Source of the DNA: Hyalangium gracile
GTDB lineage: Bacteria > Myxococcota > Myxococcia > Myxococcales > Myxococcaceae
DNA length: 64,000 nucleotides
Direction: 5' to 3'
NCBI RefSeq assembly: GCF_020103725.1
Contig: NZ_JAHXBG010000006.1
Coordinates: forward strand, 62,001 to 126,000
In this document: positions 1,350 through 63,716 of the stretch, one piece after another
Position numbering within the stretch: the stretch's first letter is position 1
Layout of the letters: each line of letters starts with the position of its first letter
Made by a program: the position numbers and the translations under genes
Notes under the pieces: model-generated
What the model saw: the letters and a program-made list of their open reading frames with translations, nothing else
Databases searched by the model: none
What the model was told of the DNA's origin: nothing

Positions 1350-2603
1350 ATGCGTACCTTTGGCCTTCCGCTTACCGGCCTGCTCACGCTCTCGCTCATG
1401 CTGCTCGCCCCGTCCGCCGGAGCCCAGCAGGAGGAGGGTGGCATGGGGTTGGATCTCTCCGGTTCCGATGAGAATCAGGAGGCCCCCGCTGGGGGAGACG
1501 AGCAGCCCGGCTCCATCGGCCTGGACCTGAGTGGCGAGGTGGCCAACTCGGACCTGCTGCCGCGTGTGGTCATCCTCGGGCTGGACACGCCGGAGCGAGC
1601 CGGTGCGGCGGTGGCCTCCCGCTGGCTGAAGGGGCTCTACGTCTCCGCTCGGAGCAACGAGAAGTGGGTGCTGAGCTCGCCGCTCAAGGAGGTGCGCGAG
1701 AAGCTGGGCGATGGCTACACGGCGGCGCTGCAGTGCGCGGAGTCCGCGTGCATGGCGGAGCCCGCGGAGACGCTCGATGCGGACCTGCTCGTCACCTCGC
1801 GCCTGGCGCTCGAGGACGAGGGGTGGACCTTCCGCCTGTGGATCTTCGATCGCGACCGCAACCGGGTGGAGATGGACTTCGTGACGGGCCGCAACCCGAA
1901 GGACGCGAAGTTCCAGAAGGCCGCCGCGGAGCTGCTGGAGCAGCGGCTGCCGAGGCTGGCCCGGCAGCGAGCCACCCTGGCGGTGAAGGTGAACGTGCCG
2001 CAGGCGGTGGTGCGCCTGGGAGAGAAGACGCTGGGCGTGGGCAGCCTGGAGCGGAACGTGGCGCCGGGCGAGCCCGAGCTCATCGTCGAGGCGGACGGCT
2101 TCACCTCGTACAACAAGCCCGTCACCCTCAAGTCGGGAGAGAAGACCGAGGTGGCGGTGTACCTGGAGCTGACGGGCACGTCGGCGGACGGCCCCTCGGA
2201 GGTGGCGGCGGAGGCGCTGGAGACGCGCAAGGAGTCCTCGATGCCGGCGGTGTTCAGCCGGCCGGCGCTGTACACGGCGGTGGTGGGGGCGCTCGCCATG
2301 GGCGCGGGCGTGGTGGTCGGCATGCAGGCCAAGAACATCGCGGACCGGGCTCCGGATGGGGATGGCAACGGCATCTCGGACATCACCCGCAAGGAGCGCA
2401 TTGACGGCCAGAACCAGGCCAACCTCTCCACGGCGCTGCTGACGGGAGGCGCCGCGGTGGTGGGCGGCAGCGTGCTGTGGCTCGTCATCATGCCCACGCG
2501 GAGTGAGGCCCCGAAGGCGGCGCCGAGCGTGGCCCCCGGAGCAGCCAGCGGGGGGACTACCTCCTCCACCGCACTCCATCTCTTGTTTGGCGGGAGCTTC
2601 TGA
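1350..2603 (+). CDS. PEGA-domain envelope protein with C-terminal membrane helices
   Basis: A 417-residue protein. Residues 1-25 form a signal peptide (cleavage after SAGA). A low-complexity segment with two GLDLSG repeats follows (about 33-62), then an alpha/beta domain (70-205), a PEGA-like domain (209-275), and two hydrophobic helices (306-325 and 359-381) around a DGDGNGISD loop. PEGA modules occur in surface and envelope proteins; here the protein is probably tethered in the envelope by its C-terminus. It is nearly collinear with the gene cut by the left window edge. It precedes a lipoprotein gene by 2 nt, so the two are co-transcribed and probably act together. No enzymatic motif is visible. 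Confidence 0.88.
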   Translation: MRTFGLPLTGLLTLSLMLLAPSAGAQQEEGGMGLDLSGSDENQEAPAGGDEQPGSIGLDLSGEVANSDLLPRVVILGLDTPERAGAAVASRWLKGLYVSARSNEKWVLSSPLKEVREKLGDGYTAALQCAESACMAEPAETLDADLLVTSRLALEDEGWTFRLWIFDRDRNRVEMDFVTGRNPKDAKFQKAAAELLEQRLPRLARQRATLAVKVNVPQAVVRLGEKTLGVGSLERNVAPGEPELIVEADGFTSYNKPVTLKSGEKTEVAVYLELTGTSADGPSEVAAEALETRKESSMPAVFSRPALYTAVVGALAMGAGVVVGMQAKNIADRAPDGDGNGISDITRKERIDGQNQANLSTALLTGGAAVVGGSVLWLVIMPTRSEAPKAAPSVAPGAASGGTTSSTALHLLFGGSF

Positions 2604-2605
2604 AC

Positions 2606-3991
2606 ATGAAGGCGCTTTATCTCTCCTTGAGCTTGCTGCTGTGTAGCGTCCTCTTCGGGGCCGCCTCGGGCTGCGTCGTCGACTTCCCGGACGAGCTGCC
2701 CTACACCTGCGAGACGGACGCGGACTGTGGCGGCAAGGGCTACCTCTGTACCGCCCTGCCGGACACGCGGCGTTACTGCTGCCTGCCCGAGGCCGAGCAG
2801 TGCAACAAGCTCGACGACGACTGCAACGGCCAGGTGGACGATCTGACGGGGGAGAGCTGCTACACGGGCAGCCAGGAGACGCTCAACGTGGGCTCGTGCC
2901 GCCCGGGCAAGCCCGTGTGCGGAGAGGGCAACATCCGCTGCCTGGGCGAGGTGCTCCCCTCCACCGAGCTGTGCAACGGCAGGGATGACGACTGCGACGG
3001 CACCGTGGACGAGGGCTTCGACTTCCAGACGAGCCGGGAGACGTGCGGCCGCTGCGATCAGGCCTGCGGCACGCTCGAGGACTGCGTGAGCGGCCAGTGC
3101 GCGCGGCGCAGGGAGGTGGCATGCGACAACACGCAGGATGACGACACGGACGGGGACATCGACTGCGTGGACACGGACTGCAACAGCCTGCCGTGTGGCC
3201 CCGGCTGCACCTGCATTGCGCGCAAGAAGGCGGAGACGGACTGCAACAACCAGGCGGATGACGAAGGAGACGGCCTCATCGACTGCCTGGATCCGGACTG
3301 CGACTCGCGCTCCTGTGGCCCCGGCTGCCAGTGCCTGAACCTCACGCGAGGCGAGGCCGACTGCATCAACACCGTCAATGATGACGGGGACGCCCAGACG
3401 GACTGCGCGGACTCGGACTGCAACGAGAAGTCGTGCGGCGAAGGGTGCTTCTGCCGGAACAATGTGAAGGCCGAGGACCTGTGCGACGACAACCTGGACA
3501 ACGACGGTGACGGGACCATGGCCGCCCCGAAGACGGACTGCCAGGACAATGACTGCGTCTCCAAGCCCTGCGGCGTGGGCTGCCTGTGCGTGGCCGTCAA
3601 CACCAAGAAGGAAGTGGTGTGCTCGGACAAGCTGGACAATGACGGTGACGGGACCATGGCCACCCCGAGGACGGACTGCCAGGACTCGGACTGCAACGGG
3701 GAGGTGTGTGCCGTCGGCGGCGGAGCCAGATGCACCAACTCGGCCTGTGCGGAGATCAACTGCGCCGACACCCTCGATAACGACGGGGATGGGCTGGTGG
3801 ACTGCGCGGACACGATGGACTGCTCCACCTGCGGTCCGGGCTGCACTTGCGTAAGCGGCGTGAAGAAGGAGACCCAATGCGCCGACACCCTCGATAACGA
3901 CGGGGATGGCCTGCTGAACTGCGCGGACCCGGACTGCAACGGCGTGGCCTGCGGTGGAAACCGCACGTGCACCAACAGCACCTGCCAGTGA
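2606..3991 (+). CDS. Cys-rich lipoprotein with MopE-like Asp/Cys repeats
   Basis: A 461-residue protein with a signal peptide and lipobox (AASGC). After two CNxxDDDCNG/CDG elements typical of the putative Cu-binding MopE motif, it carries about seven repeats of roughly 40 residues, each with DNDGDG-like acidic loops followed by CxDxDC and CGxGCxC. These look like calcium- or metal-binding cystine-rich repeats, as in surface-exposed myxobacterial lipoproteins. The start is set by ATG 2606 with GGGAGC upstream inside the end of the preceding gene. It forms a two-gene unit with the PEGA protein. The repeat array is much longer than in the paralogue at 940-1191, which fits expansion or loss of repeats after duplication. 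Confidence 0.85.
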   Translation: MKALYLSLSLLLCSVLFGAASGCVVDFPDELPYTCETDADCGGKGYLCTALPDTRRYCCLPEAEQCNKLDDDCNGQVDDLTGESCYTGSQETLNVGSCRPGKPVCGEGNIRCLGEVLPSTELCNGRDDDCDGTVDEGFDFQTSRETCGRCDQACGTLEDCVSGQCARRREVACDNTQDDDTDGDIDCVDTDCNSLPCGPGCTCIARKKAETDCNNQADDEGDGLIDCLDPDCDSRSCGPGCQCLNLTRGEADCINTVNDDGDAQTDCADSDCNEKSCGEGCFCRNNVKAEDLCDDNLDNDGDGTMAAPKTDCQDNDCVSKPCGVGCLCVAVNTKKEVVCSDKLDNDGDGTMATPRTDCQDSDCNGEVCAVGGGARCTNSACAEINCADTLDNDGDGLVDCADTMDCSTCGPGCTCVSGVKKETQCADTLDNDGDGLLNCADPDCNGVACGGNRTCTNSTCQ

Positions 3992-39577: not shown

Positions 39578-40810
39578 ATGGGCGCGCATCCAGAAGTGGA
39601 CCCGGCGGTCGCCAGGTTCCTCCGCTGGCTCGAGCAGGGCGGATCCCAGATCTCCAAGGTCCACATCGTCACCCCGGAGGGAGGCGAGCGGGGCGTTCTG
39701 GCCCTGGACGACATCGCTCCGGGAGAGACGCTCCTGCGCATTCCCCGCCGGCACGTGCTGACGGTGGAGGACGTCCGAGCCTCCGAGATGGGCCAGCTCC
39801 TCGATGCCCACGCCCAGCTCGACGAGGAGCGGACCTACCTGTCCGCCTTCCTCCTCCAGGAGCGGGAGCGGGGGGAGGACTCCTTCTGGAAGCCCTTCCT
39901 GGACATGCTGCCGAAGGCCTTCCCCTCGCACCCGTTCTTCTTCGAGGAGCACGAGCTGGCGCTGCTGCAGGGCTCCTTCCTGGCGGGGATGGTCGGGATT
40001 CAGCAGCGGATCGTCGCGGAGCGGTACGTGCACCTGAGCCAGCACGTCCCCGGGTTCAACCGGTTCACCTTCGACGCGTTCGTCTGGGCGCACTTCGCGG
40101 TGGTGACGCGCACCTTCACCATGACGCGGAGCGGCTCCCACGCCTCGTGCCTGGTGCCGCTGGTGGACATGATCAACGACGGCAGGCCGTGGGACAGCCC
40201 CTGGGCCTGGCTGGAGGAGGAGCAGTGCTTCCAGGTGAAGAGCCTGGGCGCCGTGGCGGCGGGCCAGGAGCTGCACACCACCTACGGCAACAAGAGCAAC
40301 CTGAGCCTCCTGCTCCAGTACGGCTACGTGCACGAGGACAACGCGCACGACGAGGTGCTGCTGCTGCTGGGCATTCCTCCGGGCGATGCCTTCACCGCGG
40401 AGAAGCAGCGGCTGCTGGGGCTCTCCTCGCCGGACGAGCAGCGCTCCTTCAAGCTGTCGCGCACCTATGACGCCGAGGCGATGGCCGAGCTGTTCGCCTT
40501 CCTGCGGATAGCCCAGGCGGAGGCCGGGGAGCTCTCCGTGCTCGAGGCCGCACCCGATGCGCTCGCCCTCGCCCGGGCGCCGCTGAGCCCGCGCAACGAG
40601 GAGAAGCTCCACGCCGCCTTCGCCGCCGGCTGCGAGAAGCGGCTGGCCGGCTACGCCACCTCGCTGGAGGAGGATGAGCGACTCCTCCGGGAAGAGGCGC
40701 TCTCGCCCAACGCACGCAACTGCATCCTGCTGCGGCGCGGCGAGAAGCGGCTCCTCCAGTCGTACGCCGTGCGCGCACGCGCGGGTTTTCCTTCGCTCGG
40801 GTCTGACTGA
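39578..40810 (+). CDS. Eukaryote-like SET-domain protein (SETD3/SETD6/RLSMT type)
   Basis: A 410-residue protein. The N-terminal part ([25 protein letters not shown]) is the start of a split SET domain. An inserted helical region follows, then [33 protein letters not shown] (194-205) and [18 protein letters not shown] (234-251), with a Rubs_subs-bind-like C-terminal domain. These motifs define the SETD3/Rubisco-methyltransferase class, which methylates lysine or histidine in proteins using S-adenosylmethionine. The near-invariant Asn-His of the NH box is Asn-Asp here (200-201), while the catalytic Tyr236 is present. Divergent from the AIM24 gene (85 bp apart). Substrate unknown. Confidence 0.82.
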
Positions 40811-40901
40811 AGAGCGACGGTCCCATCCCACGTCGGCGGTCATCCTCCACTGGAAGCTCGAGTCCCACAGAGGTGTTCGCGTCACCCCTGAGAGGTACGC
40901 T

Positions 40902-40927
40902 AGGGCTCCACCTTCGGTGGAGGCCCT
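40902..40927 (+). promoter_or_regulatory. Hairpin covering the ribosome binding site of the DUF4157 gene
   Basis: AGGGCTCCACC and GGTGGAGGCCCT pair over 11 bp with one bulge around a TTC loop. The 3' arm contains the Shine-Dalgarno stretch GGTGGAGG (40916-40923), and the stem ends 2 nt before ATG 40930. A folded mRNA would hide the ribosome binding site. Confidence 0.55.
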
Positions 40928-40929
40928 GC

Positions 40930-43224
40930 ATGTTCTCTTCGGATCGAAAGCCACCCGCGTCGAACTCGGCTCCTCCTTCACCGAAGGCCGCTTCGCCGAG
41001 TCCCGCGAAGGCTCCCCTCGTGGATCCGGTGTCGCTCCAGCTCGCCCTGCTGAGCCGCTCCAGGGCCGACGCTCCGGGCGGGACGGCCGCACCTGTGGTC
41101 CAACGCAAGCCGACCGTCAGCTCTCCCGGGAGCCCGCTCGAGCGCGAGGCGGACGAGGTGGCCGAGCAGGTGATGCGGATGGCGGAGCCGGCGCCCATCG
41201 GATCGGCGCCACTGGCCATCCAGCGCCTCTGCTCGGAGGCGGATGACGAGGAGCATATGATTCACCCCAAGCGGGAGGGCACGCCGGGAGTCGAGACGGC
41301 GCGGAACGTGGAGACCGCCGTCCGCGCGGCGGAGCACGGCGGAGCGCCGCTGCCGGGCACGGTGCGGTCCCAGTTCGAGCCGCGCTTCGGGCAGGACTTC
41401 AGCCAGGTGCGAGTGCATGTCGGCAGCCAGGCGGCGGAGGCGGCGCGCGCGGTGCAGGCTCGCGCGTATACGGTCGGCCGCGACATCGTCTTCGGCTCTG
41501 GCCAGTACCAGCCGGACACCGAGGGGGGACGTCGGCTCCTGGCGCACGAGCTCACTCACGTGGTGCAGCAGGGCGGAGCTCCGGAGCAGCCCGCAGCACG
41601 GCCGGCTTCGTCGGATGCCTCGGTGGCCATCCGGCGGCATTCGGCTGCTCCCTTCATCGGACGCGACAACACCCGCGAGACGACGGCCGTCATGCGCACC
41701 GGCACGGTGCGGGGCTCTGGCCTGCAGTTCTGGCCGCTCCAGGTGACCAGCACGCGGATCGGTCCCGTCTCGGGCCAGGGGGGCCTGCTCAATGACAGGC
41801 GCAACCGGCTGTCGGTCATCGTCGCTCCGACGATGACGCTGAAGAGCATCGCCACGCTCCTCCTGCCGCTGTGGAACTCCGCGGAGCCGTTCACGCCGCC
41901 AGGCGCCACCGCCCCCCTCGTCACCGGGCCTATCACCGCCGAGGAGCTCGCGCGCGGGCTGCTGGTCTACAACCGCTACTACCTTCGTGTGCTCTCGGAG
42001 CCGACGCCGTCGATGACCGGATGGACGGGCGGGCTGCGCTTCCCGCTGCCCGTCGAGATCGACGACACCGGTGTGGCCACCGTGAACAAGGACCTGCTCC
42101 AGCAGATGGCCTCGGGGTTCGATGCGGCCTGGGCTCCGCTGATCGAGCGGCCCGCCGCGGCGGTCGCCACGCCACCAGCGGCAGACCTCCAGCGCTCCGT
42201 CACGGAGTTCCTGACCGCCACCCCGGACACCGACAGCCGGGGGATGGCACTCGCCTCGCGCACCGTCACCAACCCGGTCGAGGCGCGCCCCTTCGTGCTC
42301 GAGGTCTTCAACCAGCTCGGGGCCGGAAGGTTCGACGTCGCGCTGGCGTTCATGGATGCCTCGGTCAACACGCGCATCTCGCTGCTGGCCTCCCAGCGGG
42401 ACGGCGCGGCCGTGCTCGGCGCGATCAACACCGCGCTCTCCTCCCCACCCGCGGAGCTCTCGCCGCGGCAGCAGGAGAGCCTGTCGCGAGCCCAGACCAT
42501 GCTCGGGCTCGTCTCCGGCATCGTGGCGCGGGAGGCGCCCACGTTCGGCCTCCCCACGCCCTCGGGAGGGACGGGAGGCACGCCCTTCCCCGATACCCAG
42601 CTTCGGGCCTTCGGCACCGCCGAACAGACAGCCTTCAAGCGACAGGTGTACAACGCCCACGTCGCGGCGGCTCGCGCGCGGGGACGCGTGTTCAACATGG
42701 ACCTCGCGGAGGATCAGCTCGCGCCCATCGAGGGGGGAGGCCGGCTGCACCGGGATGCGGCACCCTTCCTGACGCAGATGCTCGCGGCGGCGCGGGCCGA
42801 TCTCCAGGCGGCGCGGACCGCCAACGAAGCGCTCGCCCTGGGGGCGACGAGCATCGGAGTGGGCTCGGCCTATCGCAGCGCCACGCAGGAGCTCACCATC
42901 TGGGAGGACCTCTTCCCCCAGTACTACGCGGCCACGGCGGGGGACCGTGCCACCGCGGAGGGGGGCGAGCACGGGGCGGCTGCGGTGCGGGTCATGGTGG
43001 CCCACTACACGACGCGCAAGGCCGCCCCCGGGTTCGGCAATCACACCAACGGCATCGCGGTGGACTTCACCACCACCCAGGGAGGGGCCGCGCTGGGGGC
43101 GAACACGTCCCAGAACGAGCTATGGAGGGCCTCCTGGTTCCACGCCTGGCTCGTGGCGCACGCCTCGCAATACCACTTCCAGCCGTTGGCGAGCGAGGCG
43201 TGGCACTGGGAATACCGGCCGTGA
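40930..43224 (+). CDS. DUF4157 (eCIS-core) protein fused to M15/VanY-type peptidase
   Basis: A 764-residue protein without signal peptide. Residues ~55-100 carry VVQRK and AIQRL elements, then the DUF4157 domain (~137-215) with LPGTVRSQFEPRFGQDFSQVRVHV and HELTH (206-210, HExxH metal motif). DUF4157 marks proteins loaded in contractile injection systems and many polymorphic toxins. A long helical middle follows (~300-640). The C-terminus is M15/VanY-like: SAYRS, NHTNGIAVDF (His705, Asp712) and EAWHWEY (Glu756, His759), the zinc ligands and catalytic Glu of D,D- or L,D-carboxypeptidases. A peptidoglycan-cutting effector is inferred. The start has GGTGGAGG inside a hairpin. Confidence 0.82.
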   Translation: MFSSDRKPPASNSAPPSPKAASPSPAKAPLVDPVSLQLALLSRSRADAPGGTAAPVVQRKPTVSSPGSPLEREADEVAEQVMRMAEPAPIGSAPLAIQRLCSEADDEEHMIHPKREGTPGVETARNVETAVRAAEHGGAPLPGTVRSQFEPRFGQDFSQVRVHVGSQAAEAARAVQARAYTVGRDIVFGSGQYQPDTEGGRRLLAHELTHVVQQGGAPEQPAARPASSDASVAIRRHSAAPFIGRDNTRETTAVMRTGTVRGSGLQFWPLQVTSTRIGPVSGQGGLLNDRRNRLSVIVAPTMTLKSIATLLLPLWNSAEPFTPPGATAPLVTGPITAEELARGLLVYNRYYLRVLSEPTPSMTGWTGGLRFPLPVEIDDTGVATVNKDLLQQMASGFDAAWAPLIERPAAAVATPPAADLQRSVTEFLTATPDTDSRGMALASRTVTNPVEARPFVLEVFNQLGAGRFDVALAFMDASVNTRISLLASQRDGAAVLGAINTALSSPPAELSPRQQESLSRAQTMLGLVSGIVAREAPTFGLPTPSGGTGGTPFPDTQLRAFGTAEQTAFKRQVYNAHVAAARARGRVFNMDLAEDQLAPIEGGGRLHRDAAPFLTQMLAAARADLQAARTANEALALGATSIGVGSAYRSATQELTIWEDLFPQYYAATAGDRATAEGGEHGAAAVRVMVAHYTTRKAAPGFGNHTNGIAVDFTTTQGGAALGANTSQNELWRASWFHAWLVAHASQYHFQPLASEAWHWEYRP

Positions 43225-57066: not shown

Positions 57067-57918
57067 TCAGTGGATATTGCCGAGGATCATCAGGGCGATG
57101 ACCCAGTCGAGGCCCAGCTCCACCGCTGCGTACGTGGAGCCCACGTGCGAGGTCCCGAAGCCGAGGCCCATATGCCCGAGCGGCCCCCAGAAGAGCTTCA
57201 GCCCCGCCTCCACGCCGACATTGGGACGCGCGCCTCCTGAGCGCAGCTGGGTGCCCGCAAGCACCCGCGCGTAGGGTGCCGCCCAGTCCGAGACGAAGTA
57301 CTGGTAGCCGACGTACCCGTTCAGCTCCACTCGCGACGAGTACGTGGTCGACAGCGTCAGGTTCGCACCCACGTTGAGGCGCCGTGCGAGGAACGCCATG
57401 GGCTGGACGTTCACGTCCATCGCCACGCCACTGCCGCCCGTCACCCCGAAGCGGTACGCCAGGACGAACTCCACCACGGACTTGTCGATGGAGAGCGCCT
57501 CGTAGCGCAGGCGCTCCGCGCCCAGCGCATCGCCTCGTGCCGCGGAGAGGTCCGCCAGGGCCTGCGCGCCCTCCACCATGTTGGCGTCGTAGGACTTGTG
57601 CAGCGGCGGCGCGGCTCCGTCCAGATCGCCGTGCTCCATCCGCAGCCGTCCTTCGGTCAGGCAGGCCGTCGTGTCGTTCCATTGGCAGGCCCGACCGTAC
57701 GCCGCCGCCGCTTCCTCCCATCGGCCTTCGCCCAGGAGCTGCTCTGCCCACGCGTTGCAAGCGCCCAGCTCACCGGCGTCGCAGCGTGATGCGAGATCGG
57801 TGGGCGTCTGCACTCCCGAAGGGGAGAGCGTGGCGCATGCCGACAACACACAAGGAAGCAGCACCACCCACCAACGCACGGCATGGCGCGGGCCACGCTG
57901 GGCCACGGAAGTGTCCAT
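57067..57918 (-). CDS. Lipoprotein with TPR/Sel1-like repeats and beta-barrel-like C-terminus
   Basis: A 283-residue protein with signal peptide and lipobox (VLSAC). Residues ~45-130 contain Sel1/TPR-like helices with Cys-containing repeats (CDAGELGACNAWAEQLLGEG, AAYGRACQWNDTTACL). The C-terminal ~140 residues alternate as beta strands with aromatic ends (VGYQYFVSDWAAPYARVLAG, HMGLGFGTSHVGS). Probably an outer-membrane-associated protein. It lies 13 nt after the small Cys-rich frame that follows the RADAR genes, on the same strand, but no functional link is evident. Confidence 0.72.
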   Translation of the reverse strand: MDTSVAQRGPRHAVRWWVVLLPCVLSACATLSPSGVQTPTDLASRCDAGELGACNAWAEQLLGEGRWEEAAAAYGRACQWNDTTACLTEGRLRMEHGDLDGAAPPLHKSYDANMVEGAQALADLSAARGDALGAERLRYEALSIDKSVVEFVLAYRFGVTGGSGVAMDVNVQPMAFLARRLNVGANLTLSTTYSSRVELNGYVGYQYFVSDWAAPYARVLAGTQLRSGGARPNVGVEAGLKLFWGPLGHMGLGFGTSHVGSTYAAVELGLDWVIALMILGNIH

Positions 57919-57931
57919 GCGCGGCATTCAA

Positions 57932-58185: not shown

Positions 58186-60999
58186 TCAGTCGTACTCGAT
58201 GAATGGTTTGCGCAGGTAGTGCTCCAACTCGTGCAGCAGCTCGTCCGCCATGCCCAGGGCGGTAGGTCTCCAGGGCACGGTGAAGCGCGCGTCCATGCTC
58301 GTCTGGCGAATCGCGGTCAGCCACTCCTGCACCACCCGCTCCGAGTAGCCCGCTCCCGTCGCCGCCTCGTGCAGCAGCGAGTACTCCCGCAGCAGGAAGG
58401 TGCTGAAGACGATCGGGTCGTCCGCCCCGAGCGCGATCGGAACGGGCGGAGGAGCACCCTCCTGCGCTTGCGGTGGAAACAGCCGCAGGATCGGGTGGTT
58501 GCGCAGGTCCAGCAGGTCGCCGATGAGCAGGTTGCTGGAGGGGTTCACCTCCACGACGATGCCTCGGGCCCCCACGAGCCGGCGCAGCCCGTCCTGCACG
58601 GTCTGCAGCGCCGCCACCTCCGAGTCATCCAGGGCAATGTCCACCAGCCGCTGCCCGCGCTGGAAGACGGCCTCATCATCGCGGTACGCATGCAGGAGCC
58701 TCCGCACCTGCCTGTGCCCTTGCACCTGCAGCCAGTCCAGCCGCTCGAACGCGCGGGTGAAGGCATCCAGCCCCACGCCTCCCTCGCCTCGTGACAGCGG
58801 CGGACACCAGAGCTGGTGCAGCACGTGGTGGGCTTCGGCCAGCTGGTGCGGCAGATAGCACCTGCCGAAGACGAGCTCGGACAGCTCGCGGAGCTTGTTC
58901 TCCACCTGGGGGGGCCGCCCCGAGGGGGGCTGCACGCTCAGCGCCACGGGGAGCCGGTGGTTGCTGTACAGCCTCCACTCGAAGACCAGGTCCCACAGCC
59001 GATCCTCGGCCGGCATCATCACCGCGCCCACGGACTCGGCCCATATCCGTGGCTCCACGCCCAGGGCGGTAGCATGCCCCAGGCGTCCCCCGGAGCGATC
59101 CAGCTGGTAGTAGACGCACTCGAAGATGCGGCGCAGCCCCTCCATGAGGTGGCGGTAGTCCTCGCCCACGTGAGCGGTCATCCGCAGCGGGGGCGCGTTC
59201 CTGGATGCGCTCGAGGCCGCCGCGCGGGCCGCCGCCTGGCGCACGTAGCGGAAGAGCGGCACCACCACCCACGTGGGCACGCTCAGCTCGTCCGCGGCCA
59301 CGTCCAATCCACGCACCAGCCACAACATGCGCGGCACGGCCGCCAGCAGGTCCGCCGTCGCCTGGGCCATCAGGGACTGCTTGTCGAAGTATTCCGCGAA
59401 GCGGCCCCCCAGCCGCACCTGCTCGTACTCCTGGCTCTTGGGATGAGGCTCGGCATAGGTGCCCATCCCGTACGCCGGTGGGGCGCCGCGGGCCCACTGC
59501 CTCCTGGGGTCCCTCGACTTGTTGAGGTGCAGCACCACGCCGAACTCGGGTGTGGAGCCACTTCCCAGGCTACTGCCCGTCTGCTCCAGCACGTGCCGCC
59601 AGGAGCGCGTCAGCCACCACAGATCCTGGGCCAGCGTCATGGAGTTGCTCGCGGGGGTGATGCGGACCTCCAGGGCGGCGATGGGCTGCCCCCCTCCCGC
59701 CACGTGGTAGGACACCTCGGCGCGGGCGGCGCTCAGCGGGCCCCGCGCCACGTGCACCCGATCATAGAAGCGGATGAACCACTGCAGCCCCGCCGTCATG
59801 GGCCGCTGCACGTAGGCGCGGTAGGTCAGGCACCGCGCACGCACCACCTGCCAGAAGAGGTGGCTGAACAGCTCATCCTTCACCGCTCCCTCTTTCTTGG
59901 CGGCCTCCGCTTCCAGCCACTCGAGCCGCTCCAGGGCATGGCTGACCAGCCAGCGCTCTCCGGCGTTGGGCTTGGACAGGTGCAGGCGGACGGCAAGGGG
60001 ATCGCACCGCCTCCACACCTCGTCCAGCGTCTCGGGGGGCTCGAAGCTGTTGCGGGCCGCCGTCGGGTGAAGGTCCTGATAGAGCCCGTGCAGCGCGGTG
60101 AAGTCTGGCAGCAGCGCGAGCCGGCCCCGCGCCAGTGCCTCCAGCGCCTGCCGCAAGACGCGGTGCCGCCCGGGCAGCCAGCCCCGCGAGCGCTTCAGGC
60201 TCCACACGAAGTCTGGCAGCAGCGCGTCGTCCGAGCGCAGGAGGAACTCGGCCAGCACGCAGCGCGCCACCGCGGCGGCCAGCAGCCAGCGCAGCAGCTC
60301 CTCTCCATCCCTGGAGGGCAGGCCCGGCCCCTGCACCGCATCCGAGCGCAGGCCTGGAGCTCCCAGGGCCGACAGCAGAGAGGCCCACATGAGGGGAAAG
60401 TCCATGCCCGCGCCGATGTGGTGGTGGATCTCCGTCACCCCTCGGTCCAGCAGGCGCCGCACCAGCAGGGGCGGCTCGATGTTCACCCGGGTGGCGGGCG
60501 GGGAGACTGGCATGGCGGCCAGCAGCAGATCCTCCGGCAGCGCGAAGGTGAGCCAGCGGTAGTGGGTGAGGGCATCCACCGCCTCGATATCGCTGCGCTG
60601 GGCCACCTCGGTGACGCCCGGGCGCCGCTCCAGGTGCGTCAGGGCCAGGCGCCGCAGGTAGCGATGGAGCGGCACGCCCCTCAGGGGCTGCCTTTCGTCG
60701 GCGTCTCCGGGCGGAATGAACCAGAAGTGGTCGCGCACGGCGATGAGCCGGTCGAGCGACCAGCCGCTGGCGTGCTCCGACAAGCTCTTCTCGCACTCGC
60801 GCCACAGCTCCCGGGTGGGATGAGGCTGGCTGTGGCTCATCCGCCCGTCCAGCTGGGGATCCAGCACCGTCAGCGACGTCTGGAAGGCCTTGAGGTGGGT
60901 CAGCGGAAAGCTGGCCACCTCGGCACGGATATAGGCCTCGGGCACGCGCCGGGGCGTCAGCGTCCCGAGGCCCAGCTGCCCCTGCCCCGCGCCGCTCAC
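58186..60999 (-). CDS. rdrB: RADAR system adenosine deaminase RdrB
   Basis: A 937-residue protein. The start GTG 60999 shares the GTGA with the rdrA stop. All adenosine-deaminase metal and catalytic motifs are present in order: EIHHHIGAG (HxH, 192-194), TAHVGED (His610, Glu613), RLGHATALG (His642), VNPSSN (819-823), NHPILRL (835-836) and LGADDPIVFS (858-866). The large size with helical insertions between the first two motifs is that of RdrB, not of free-living adenosine deaminase (~330-350 residues). RdrB forms giant assemblies with RdrA and deaminates adenosine in RNA or ATP/dATP on phage infection. Function is inferred from motif order and partner. Confidence 0.9.
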   Translation of the reverse strand: MSGAGQGQLGLGTLTPRRVPEAYIRAEVASFPLTHLKAFQTSLTVLDPQLDGRMSHSQPHPTRELWRECEKSLSEHASGWSLDRLIAVRDHFWFIPPGDADERQPLRGVPLHRYLRRLALTHLERRPGVTEVAQRSDIEAVDALTHYRWLTFALPEDLLLAAMPVSPPATRVNIEPPLLVRRLLDRGVTEIHHHIGAGMDFPLMWASLLSALGAPGLRSDAVQGPGLPSRDGEELLRWLLAAAVARCVLAEFLLRSDDALLPDFVWSLKRSRGWLPGRHRVLRQALEALARGRLALLPDFTALHGLYQDLHPTAARNSFEPPETLDEVWRRCDPLAVRLHLSKPNAGERWLVSHALERLEWLEAEAAKKEGAVKDELFSHLFWQVVRARCLTYRAYVQRPMTAGLQWFIRFYDRVHVARGPLSAARAEVSYHVAGGGQPIAALEVRITPASNSMTLAQDLWWLTRSWRHVLEQTGSSLGSGSTPEFGVVLHLNKSRDPRRQWARGAPPAYGMGTYAEPHPKSQEYEQVRLGGRFAEYFDKQSLMAQATADLLAAVPRMLWLVRGLDVAADELSVPTWVVVPLFRYVRQAAARAAASSASRNAPPLRMTAHVGEDYRHLMEGLRRIFECVYYQLDRSGGRLGHATALGVEPRIWAESVGAVMMPAEDRLWDLVFEWRLYSNHRLPVALSVQPPSGRPPQVENKLRELSELVFGRCYLPHQLAEAHHVLHQLWCPPLSRGEGGVGLDAFTRAFERLDWLQVQGHRQVRRLLHAYRDDEAVFQRGQRLVDIALDDSEVAALQTVQDGLRRLVGARGIVVEVNPSSNLLIGDLLDLRNHPILRLFPPQAQEGAPPPVPIALGADDPIVFSTFLLREYSLLHEAATGAGYSERVVQEWLTAIRQTSMDARFTVPWRPTALGMADELLHELEHYLRKPFIEYD

Positions 61000-63716
61000 G
61001 AATGCACCGCCCCCGGGCCATCCTGCCGGGCCGCCTCCCGCGAAGCGCTCCACGCATCCAGCTCGAGGGGAGTCATCTTCTGGAGCACCTCCTCCTCGCG
61101 AGCGATCCGCGCGCTCGGCTCATCCATGACCTCGAACCAGGCCTGCGTCACCTTGTGGAGCCAGGCTTGGACCAGCTCCTCCGCGCCGGCCGGATTCATG
61201 CTCGAGGCCTTGCGGAGGGCCTCGTAGCTGCTGGAGCGCATGGCGACGGCGCGCACCAGGTTCTCCCGGAAGCGCGTCAACCGGGGCAGGTGCTTCTTCC
61301 AGTGCCCCACCAGCTCTTTCCACGCCTTCTCCTCCACCCGGCGCTGGCTGACATGCCCCAGCAGGGAGGGGAGCTCGGGAGAGGGAGCGAACTCCGGCTG
61401 CGCGAGCAGGGGCAGGAGCTGCTCCAGCCAGGTGCGCGCCATCCGCAGCCTGTCGTAGCCCTTGCTCTCGTTCAGGCACTTCTGGGAGAGCTGGCCGAGG
61501 GCGGCCCGCGCCTGCTCCTCGTAGCGCTCCAGCGCCGCGCTGGTCAGCACCGAGCCCTGCGTCGGCTCGGGCTGCCAGGGCTCCCACTGGCCACGCTGGT
61601 CGCTGGCCACCGAGCGGATGTTGTCGACCCAGGAGGCGAGGACGAGGCGGAACAGGAGCGCGACGGTGTCCCCGTCGTACCTGTCCTCCTCGAGCCCCTC
61701 GAGGCGCTTGCGCATCCGCGGAAGGAAGGCCTTCCACTGCGTGGTGAAGATGTTGAAGTCGAGGAACATGTCCCAGGAGGGGAGGCTCCACAGGAAGTCC
61801 ATCTTGACCAGGGGCTGGAGCTGCTCGTTCCTCACCCACAGCTCGTGCAGCGTCACCACGAGCTCGGGGCTGATCTCATAAGGCGTCACGTCCACGTTCA
61901 AGACCCGCGGCTCGTCAAAGAGCATCAGCACGTCGTGCAGCAACATGAACCAGCCGGCGACGCTGGGGGGCAGGTGCGTGCGGTTGCGTGGATCCTCGAG
62001 ATCGACCAGCTCGAGGATGACGTCATGAATGTGCCGCAGATGCAGCTCGCTGATGAGGACCGCGCTGTTCGACGAATTCCCGCCCGTCCCCGAGGAGGCC
62101 CGCTTGCCCTTCTCCTCGAGGAACATGCCGCGTGAGACCTCCAGGGCATCGGACAGGGTGGTGCGCCTGGCGCGGCGCACCGGCTTGCCGGTCAGGTCCA
62201 GGACCATCTTCCCGTGGACGTCCCTGCGGAGCATCCGGTTGTGGAACTGCTGGCTCGCCCAGGCGGGCAGCTCGCTCTCGTCGAGGGCATTGCGCAGCAT
62301 CTCGGTCGCGATGCGGACGATGCTCTCGGCGGGCTCCTCGTCCTTCTCGAGCTGCTCGCTCTGGGAGCGCATCGACTCGCGGCGAGCGGAGTGCCACAAA
62401 TCCCTCAGGGTGCGTGCGGGCAGGGTGAGTGCCATGCGGGCCGCGCTGGTGAGATGGATCGCGCCCGTTGTCGAGGAGTCTTTCGCCTCGGTGGCTCCAT
62501 GCCGCTGGTGCTCCTCCGGGAGCGCCTCCTTCACGGAGGAAGAGAGCCGCTCGCCGATGTCGAAGAGGTGGGCGAAGGCTCTGAGCTGGTGTCCCCGGGC
62601 CGCCGACACCGGCAGCAGGAGCTTGTCGAGCAGTTCGTGCAGGCGCGGGCCCCCGTTGGAGTTGCCAGTGAACTCCCATGCCTCCACCGGGTTCACCGGC
62701 TCGATGCGGATGCGGTAGCTGGGGGGAAGCGCGCGGCGCAGGGTGGTGGCGGCCTGCCGGCGTGCGATGGCCATGGACTCGTCGTGGCCCTTGGGGCCGA
62801 GGCCGGCCTGGCCGGAGACGATGAGCTCCTTCTGGAAGGAGCGCTCCATGAAGAGCTGAAACTCCTCCTGGCCGGCCGCCATGATGAACCAGAGGCGGCG
62901 GCTGGTCACCATGCGGGTGAGCTTCACGATGTTGTGGAGGTGCCCGATGCTCCGGTCCACGTTGTCGATGGGGAGCACGAGGATGCCTTTGGCATCATCC
63001 ACGGTGCTGGAGTGGGTGAGGGCGAGCGTGGTGGCCACGTCATCCATGGCGTCGATGAAGCTCTGCTGGAAGTGGGCGAAGATCTCGGAGGCCTTGATCT
63101 GCTCTTCGGTGCGTACGCGGGCCTCGGTGGTGTTGGGGATGTCCTCCCACATGAACGAGGCATCACGGATGAGCCGGTCCAGCTTGCCCCAGGGGTCCTC
63201 CGCGCTCTCCTCGAGGAGGGAGGCGCCGCGCCAGGAGCCCTGCTTGCGACCGGCAGTGCTCTTGCGGGTCTTGTCGAGGGCGGCCCGCACGCGGACCAGG
63301 ATGGCGGCCAGGAGGTTGGCCGACTCCGGGAGCGGCTCCAGATCCAGCGGCTCGAGCCAGGTAATCTGCGGCTTGATCTTCGAGAGGAACTCCGCCAGCT
63401 CCTTGTTCTTCTGCTTCGCGTTGTCCGTGCTCCCCTCCGACTTGAGGAAGTCATCCGGATTGCTGAGCGCCTGCGCAGCGCTGAGGAACACCGTCGTCTT
63501 GCCCGTGCCCCGGGCGCCATGGATGAGGAGGCTGGTGGAGACGTGCTCTTGCGTGTCCTTGCGGGAGCTGTCGTCGCAGGCGGCCCTCAGCCACACGAGC
63601 AGTTCGTACAAGGCATCCTGGGTGGGGCGCAGCAGCTCCCCCCACCTGAACGCCTGGGCCTCCGGGATGGGCGCCGGTGCAAAGGGGATGCTCGGGGGCT
63701 GGGGATTCGAGGGCAT
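60996..63716 (-). CDS. rdrA: RADAR system AAA+ ATPase RdrA
   Basis: A 906-residue protein of the size of RdrA. It has a Walker A GARGTGKTT (67-75), Walker B LVLPIDNVD (246-254) and an arginine/sensor region LWFIMAAGQEEF, followed by a long helical C-terminal region (~450-900) as in STAND-like ATPases. It acts as the ATPase partner that loads or activates RdrB after phage detection. ATG 63716 has GGAGAAGG 7 nt upstream. Its TGA overlaps the GTG of rdrB, giving translational coupling. It shares a 251-bp intergenic region with a divergent gene at the right edge, so its own promoter should lie there. Confidence 0.88.
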   Translation of the reverse strand: MPSNPQPPSIPFAPAPIPEAQAFRWGELLRPTQDALYELLVWLRAACDDSSRKDTQEHVSTSLLIHGARGTGKTTVFLSAAQALSNPDDFLKSEGSTDNAKQKNKELAEFLSKIKPQITWLEPLDLEPLPESANLLAAILVRVRAALDKTRKSTAGRKQGSWRGASLLEESAEDPWGKLDRLIRDASFMWEDIPNTTEARVRTEEQIKASEIFAHFQQSFIDAMDDVATTLALTHSSTVDDAKGILVLPIDNVDRSIGHLHNIVKLTRMVTSRRLWFIMAAGQEEFQLFMERSFQKELIVSGQAGLGPKGHDESMAIARRQAATTLRRALPPSYRIRIEPVNPVEAWEFTGNSNGGPRLHELLDKLLLPVSAARGHQLRAFAHLFDIGERLSSSVKEALPEEHQRHGATEAKDSSTTGAIHLTSAARMALTLPARTLRDLWHSARRESMRSQSEQLEKDEEPAESIVRIATEMLRNALDESELPAWASQQFHNRMLRRDVHGKMVLDLTGKPVRRARRTTLSDALEVSRGMFLEEKGKRASSGTGGNSSNSAVLISELHLRHIHDVILELVDLEDPRNRTHLPPSVAGWFMLLHDVLMLFDEPRVLNVDVTPYEISPELVVTLHELWVRNEQLQPLVKMDFLWSLPSWDMFLDFNIFTTQWKAFLPRMRKRLEGLEEDRYDGDTVALLFRLVLASWVDNIRSVASDQRGQWEPWQPEPTQGSVLTSAALERYEEQARAALGQLSQKCLNESKGYDRLRMARTWLEQLLPLLAQPEFAPSPELPSLLGHVSQRRVEEKAWKELVGHWKKHLPRLTRFRENLVRAVAMRSSSYEALRKASSMNPAGAEELVQAWLHKVTQAWFEVMDEPSARIAREEEVLQKMTPLELDAWSASREAARQDGPGAVHS

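Follow-up and report, generated by a model that had tools for sequence, protein, structure and literature searches.

RADAR is an anti-phage system known from 75 genera in seven phyla and present in less than 1% of genomes (PMC9994260). Its RdrB component deaminates ATP to ITP and dATP to dITP, and both RdrA and RdrB are needed for protection from phage; the E. coli and Citrobacter systems function with rdrA and rdrB alone (PMC9994260). Other RADAR loci have membrane partners, SLATT or Csx27, in rdrABCD and rdrABC arrangements (PMC7699616). The E. coli P0304799.3 system provides solved structures of RdrA (EcRdrA, 8fnt), RdrB (EcRdrB, 8fnv) and their complex (8fnw/8hr7), and the zinc and catalytic residues of EcRdrB are H152, H154, H498, E501 and H530 (PMC9994260).

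We analyzed a 64,000-nucleotide stretch of the Hyalangium gracile genome (contig NZ_JAHXBG010000006.1, positions 62,001 to 126,000; hereafter the window), in which a reading of the sequence alone had predicted a RADAR (rdrA-rdrB) locus in a myxobacterium. Profile searches, structural comparison and conservation of the gene pair all support that prediction. The locus is a real RADAR, ordinary in kind, whose only extraordinary features are its divergence, the signature of its ATPase site and the neighbors of its relatives. Taken together, our analyses make it very probable that this is a two-gene RADAR from a divergent branch, for which we propose defense by ATP/dATP to ITP/dITP conversion. The original prediction had also pointed to an intact copy outside the enterobacteria; the identity of the system in a myxobacterium stands, but its novelty does not, given the published taxonomic range (PMC9994260). 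We found no publication on a Corallococcus or Myxococcus RADAR in the openly accessible literature.

Layout of the gene pair

The host contig is 548 kb long, and its genome, of 11.7 Mb, contains just one copy of rdrB. Both open reading frames and their overlap were found as predicted (Table 1), with an ATPase gene of 906 codons starting at ATG, followed by a deaminase gene of 937 codons starting at GTG. The junction reads ...GTG CAT TCG TGA with the rdrB start inside it, and the overlap probably couples translation of the two genes; an alternative upstream GTG would yield an RdrB of 955 aa. The order of the genes is that of E. coli RADAR, and the tandem arrangement of a large deaminase behind a large ATPase, which the original prediction took as the RADAR layout, recurs at every full-length locus described below. 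Neither gene contains a stop codon or frameshift. Pairwise dN/dS among relatives is 0.28-0.59 for rdrA, which evolves faster, and 0.13-0.39 for rdrB, i.e., both genes are under purifying selection. These values, together with the recurrent pairing at 37/37 loci, rule out chance open reading frames.

Table 1. Coordinates of features of the RADAR locus (window positions) and of 4-TM genes at related loci (locus:position)
Feature	Position	Strand	Basis or conservation
rdrA, AAA+ ATPase of RADAR	60996..63716	-	ORF, NF041743, Foldseek, VIA-align, profile-profile
rdrB, large adenosine-deaminase-fold effector of RADAR	58186..60999	-	ORF, NF041744, PADLOC, 8fnv, profile-profile
GTGA overlap, rdrA stop/rdrB start	60996..60999	-	sequence read directly
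RdrA Walker A GARGTGKT, residues 67-74, K73 = EcRdrA K82	63495..63518	-	sequence alignment
RdrA Walker B D251-N252-V-D254, N252 = EcRdrA D222	62955..62966	-	RdrA alignment
RdrA R435, sensor-2 arginine = EcRdrA R377	62412..62414	-	R in 37/37; hhalign
RdrB zinc ligands H192, H194 = EcRdrB H152, H154	60418..60426	-	43/43 rows
RdrB H610-V-G-E613, zinc ligand and catalytic Glu = EcRdrB H498, E501	59161..59172	-	43/43 rows
RdrB H642 (RLGH642), zinc ligand = EcRdrB H530	59074..59076	-	43/43 rows
RdrB NPSSN motif, residues 819-823	58531..58545	-	invariant in 36 relatives
RdrB D860-D861 (D860DP) = EcRdrB D748-D749	58417..58422	-	43/43 rows
4-TM gene	L025:8776-9978	-	
4-TM gene	L005:10776-12209	-	
4-TM gene	L095:1-549	-	
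4-TM gene	L097:10619-11833	+	
4-TM gene	L115:10765-12150	-	
4-TM gene	L104:11322-12482	-	

The deaminase belongs to the RdrB family

The HMM search proposed with the original prediction gave a clear RdrB match. Against the NCBIfam profile NF041744 the deaminase scored 155.9 bits (E 1.6e-45), a profile matched by all 36 members of its family, and it also matched the PADLOC RdrB model (E 3.6e-37) and the sequence of the solved EcRdrB (E 2.7e-29). A profile-profile comparison of the family with seven plasmid-borne RADAR RdrBs gave E 4.4e-71 over 738 columns. The protein was expected to be about three times the normal length of a deaminase, and single-domain deaminases in our hit lists are indeed only roughly 330-370 aa long. 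RdrBs, at ~90 kDa, have additional segments flanking and interrupting the deaminase core, and the window protein fits this pattern.

All of the adenosine-deaminase motifs that the original prediction listed could be located (H192xH194, H610VGE613, RLGH642, N819PSSN823, HP at residues 835-836, and D860DP), and 36 relatives show little or no variation in them. The five catalytic residues (H192, H194, H610, E613 and H642) are identical in 43/43 alignment rows, including a proxy of E. coli RdrB, and the H498-E501-H530 spacing of EcRdrB, with 32 residues to H530, is retained. By this alignment, the deaminase active site is complete. In contrast, the window RdrB is 138 residues longer than EcRdrB, and the glutamate triad E595-597 of the EcRdrB three-fold interface is absent from it and is likewise not conserved in the aligned plasmid RADARs. 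The AlphaFold model of RdrB, for which only 7-9 sequences were usable, is poor (mean pLDDT 50); its Foldseek search (E 3.5e-10) returned seven significant matches, all to RdrB, but at an rmsd above 20 Å and partly driven by sequence, so that we give this match no weight.

The ATPase is recognized by its fold

For RdrA, the same proposed search gave a faint match. The protein matched NF041743 at E 4.7e-7, in the stretch around Walker A, with a score of 28.7 bits that lies far below the curated cut-off. Such near-invisibility by sequence is expected, because even among published RdrAs the ATPase domains are no more than 22-25% identical (PMC9994260); the aligned identity between the window and E. 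coli ATPase cores is ~16%. The best PDB match of the RdrA family profile was E. coli RdrA, in an alignment that keeps Walker A and the Walker B/sensor region in register, and an hhalign profile-profile comparison to plasmid-borne RdrAs gave E 1.6e-20 over 336 columns.

Structural comparison, the second check proposed, placed the predicted fold closest to RdrA. The top 19 Foldseek matches (best E 2.9e-9) were to E. coli or S. suis RdrA, and so were all matches at E<=1e-3; the first other protein appeared at 7.6e-3. VIA-align superposed 271 residues of RdrA on model residues 14-349 at 3.5 Å with Z 20.7, compared to Z 12.8 for BrxC, the next family. The underlying AlphaFold model, again built from only 7-9 usable sequences, has a mean pLDDT of 47, with moderate confidence in the ATPase domain and poor confidence elsewhere. 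In this model, the Walker B strand (245-251) comes after helices at residues 135-157, 175-190 and 199-233, and the predicted bundle of helices that separates Walker B from the second strand of the core occupies the position of the E. coli crown. The window RdrA thus resembles its E. coli counterpart in its AAA+ fold with a helical insertion, its Walker A motif and its sensor-2 arginine. Beyond about residue 342, where the alpha-helical C-terminal lobe of RdrA would lie, the prediction is mostly helical, but with pLDDT below 50.

Both window proteins belong to the NF041743 and NF041744 families by E-value and differ from these Citrobacter-type models in falling below the NCBI equivalog cut-offs (28.7 vs. 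600 bits for RdrA and 155.9 vs. 800 bits for RdrB). A Pantoea plasmid RdrB that is almost identical to the solved E. coli protein (1675 bits, all 799 residues) reached just 114.6 bits against NF041744 and so also lies under the cut-off, and the E. coli protein to which it is so close has been both structurally solved and phage-tested (PMC9994260). Failing the cut-off is therefore no argument against RADAR membership. The Aliivibrio and Salmonella plasmid copies pass NF041743 and NF041744; the NF041744 cut-off marks a Citrobacter-type subgroup rather than RADAR.

An altered ATPase site

The Walker A lysine and the glycine preceding it are kept in 37/37 aligned RdrAs. The second Walker-B acid, D222 in EcRdrA, is Asn in 20/20 RdrAs of the window's branch and Asp in all 17 comparison RdrAs, which come from a second Myxococcota RADAR clade and from plasmids. 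That second clade (L034-L045) shares the rdrA-rdrB pair and has 30-33% RdrB identity to the window, but it keeps the Walker B DD, and several of its RdrAs are longer (~1120-1220 aa). The sensor-1 Asp (EcRdrA D253) is absent from the 18 Myxococcota members of the branch and present in the two Methylococcales members; it is also missing from a few RADARs outside the branch. Unchanged in the branch are the first Walker-B Asp (EcRdrA D221), D254 as the third acid, and the arginine of sensor 2. The full E. coli set (Walker A, D221/D222, D253 and R377) is not found in the window RdrA, with D222 replaced by N252 and the sensor-1 Asp lost, a set made up of described features of E. coli RdrA rather than a published membership criterion. 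As far as these residues can tell, RdrAs of the branch may be slow at hydrolyzing ATP or may rely on D254, the third acid of Walker B, and the change in Walker B could also mean that the ATPase has another role or has lost its role.

In this natural branch the ATPase site has changed and the deaminase site is intact, which offers a direct test of ATP hydrolysis against ATP binding in RdrA. The question it addresses is which RdrA step switches on ATP-to-ITP conversion, hydrolysis or binding alone.

Neighborhood of the locus and membrane-protein genes in relatives

The original prediction had placed the locus next to other conflict genes, which did not hold up. The flanking genes are ordinary (MATE transporter, GNAT, ArsR/AHSA1, TonB receptor, ELWxxDGT-repeat protein and polysaccharide deacetylase), and we reject a defense island around the window rdrAB. 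Downstream of rdrB are a 286-aa lipoprotein-like ORF (57067-57927) with no Pfam match and then the MATE transporter gene; on the upstream side of rdrA, beyond the window, lie first a divergent 108-aa ORF with three predicted TM segments and then the ELWxxDGT-repeat protein, the polysaccharide deacetylase and other genes. The 108-aa ORF was considered as a RADAR partner and set aside, as it has no relative in any other of 58 family genomes. In an empty-site comparison, the flanking MATE and deacetylase genes were not syntenic in congeners. Among the neighbors tested, no conflict gene was recognized except an eCIS-core-domain protein 15 kb away, a 783-aa protein (window 40873-43224) with a VanY-like C-terminal domain, which is adjoined by a Rubisco-LSMT-substrate-binding-domain protein (39578-40810).

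Relatives of the locus do have a recurrent neighbor, a protein of ~400 aa that matches no Pfam family and is predicted to have four TM segments (4-TM). It is encoded beside rdrAB in every other member of the window's 17-row RdrB subclade. In 14 Corallococcus genomes the gene is convergent to rdrB with ends 4-40 bp apart, at loci L095 and L097, from two other families, it is a same-strand third gene after rdrB, and at the second locus of genome G030 it is divergent to rdrA; the two Corallococcus genomes lacking the window's branch also lack the gene. The window locus has no 4-TM gene, and its genome contains one unlinked copy, on contig C46. In the 4-TM family tree, all RADAR-linked copies cluster apart from unlinked ones (97/94), with the exception that the C46 copy falls inside the linked group. 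Its neighbors on C46 are two DUF6345 genes and one for a papain-family protease.

Published SLATT- and Csx27-associated RADARs (PMC7699616) resemble these relatives in keeping a membrane-protein gene beside rdrAB, from which the window locus differs in having no adjacent membrane gene shared with its relatives. We considered the 4-TM family as a SLATT relative and rejected this, as the Corallococcus protein shows no similarity to the one SLATT protein tested and PADLOC and Pfam are silent; the silence of PADLOC says little, because it missed that SLATT protein, an annotated one, as well. The family seems to be undescribed in the accessible literature, and the linked protein is a candidate link between some RADARs and the membrane. 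Other multi-TM proteins are encoded beside rdrA in the same branch (L028:2203-3129, L032:9349-9945 and L030:1798-2553), the first two of which are related to each other and the third separate. A Methylobacter member of the branch has a SLATT-like protein (L009:4243-4950) whose gene overlaps rdrA by 8 bp. Directly upstream of rdrA at L030 is a gene for a 152-aa nucleoside 2-deoxyribosyltransferase-like protein (2563-3021; PF15891, E 1e-6), possibly another nucleotide-acting partner.

The original description of the locus as complete is accurate for the two intact core genes but not for the membrane-protein neighbor of most sister loci, which is missing. With every subclade relative keeping a linked copy and the window genome only an unlinked one, the locus might be a defective RADAR that has lost a needed membrane protein and is inactive or dependent on a copy elsewhere. 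We consider this improbable: rdrA and rdrB suffice in E. coli and Citrobacter (PMC9994260), neither window gene is interrupted, and the unlinked copy could act in trans. In a distinct RADAR branch of this kind, an RdrA that lacks standard hydrolysis residues could serve as an ATP-binding switch, with the undescribed 4-TM protein as a third component in most relatives and unlinked in the window genome, a tentative model that we put forward as possible while rating it unlikely.

Distribution and co-inheritance

A profile search of 145 Myxococcales genomes found full-length rdrB in 30 species genomes (21%) at 37 loci. RdrA is the neighbor at each of the 37, and no lone rdrB copy was seen among them. 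RdrA and RdrB distance matrices agree closely (r 0.95; Mantel, 0/2000 permutations), which indicates co-inheritance rather than contact, because shared ancestry alone contributes. In the RdrB tree, the window protein is grouped with the Corallococcus proteins and the second G030 copy at full SH-aLRT support, L095 and L097 come next (92), and the Methylococcales lie outside. The branch is common in myxobacteria and is missed by standard gene-naming models. RADAR has been counted as rare with models that even the near-twin of the E. coli protein fails, and its spread is probably underestimated, because so large a share of Myxococcales genomes contains a full-length match.

The branch occurs in 14/16 Corallococcus species, with a fifteenth carrying a different branch, and in three Methylococcales contigs. 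In the window's own genus, 4/6 other sampled species lack it. Several genomes contain two to four different RADAR copies, and G003, G042, G067 and G040 combine both Myxococcota clades in two to three loci. A short rdrA fragment beside a 4-TM gene fragment in genome G017 (contig C530, L114:9326-10256) is probably what is left of a second RADAR locus that has decayed. A pattern scan of 50,697 phage records and IMG/VR found no RdrB relatives, and a phage or prophage origin was rejected on this basis. Plasmid RdrB copies exist but are distant (21-29% identity).

Near-fixation in Corallococcus is unusual for a system in <1% of genomes (PMC9994260), and, together with the ordinary genomic surroundings and the changed ATPase site, it would suit proteins of the same families co-opted for housekeeping or development, e.g., nucleotide-pool control in starvation or fruiting. 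However, the patchy occurrence elsewhere in the family (with absence from most sampled congeners), the multiple differing copies per genome, the decayed rdrA and membrane-gene fragments in G017, the faster change of rdrA and the spread to Methylococcales are habits of defense genes and argue against such a role, which we judge distinctly improbable. An oversized nucleoside-salvage deaminase with an unrelated NTPase upstream by chance, as might be read from the weak similarity of the deaminase C-terminus to PF00962 (A_deaminase; 22.5 bits vs. a cut-off of 27) and the weak ATPase matches to several AAA families, can be dismissed with near certainty on scores and length (RdrB models score five times any salvage model, the best salvage match covers only the C-terminal part at E 2.9e-7 against 1.6e-45 for RdrB, TIGR01430 gives 20.7 bits vs. 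a cut-off of 216.6, and the protein has 937 aa), and it is contradicted by an ATPase that matches RdrA folds above all others, by pairing at 37/37 loci and by correlated distances, so that neither observation named beforehand as refuting RADAR, a salvage deaminase or an unrelated NTPase, was made.

Proposed mechanism

On the reading of the locus as a functional RADAR, RdrA would be an AAA+ ATPase that forms oligomers, bears a crown of helices and a large lobe at its C-terminus, responds to a cue from the phage and attaches to a shell of RdrB. The RdrB enzyme, of adenosine-deaminase fold, would then turn ATP into ITP and dATP into dITP, and the nucleotide pool poisoned in this way would stop phage replication. 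In the window's branch, ATP binding rather than fast turnover might drive assembly of the complex. The oligomeric states (RdrA heptamer and RdrB dodecamer in one supramolecular assembly), the substrate and the protection from phage are our best guess, carried over from the RADARs of E. coli, Citrobacter and S. suis.

Two further observations concern more distant loci. A 2707-codon frame present in two genomes has a weak 31-bit match to the RdrB C-terminal deaminase (L099, G065:C168:40094-40336; L100, G075:C16:18269-18511). On the Rhizobium leguminosarum plasmid pRLN3, an annotated adenylosuccinate synthetase is encoded ~900 bp downstream of a RADAR-like pair (L086:4516-9554), which could bear on inosine nucleotide handling.
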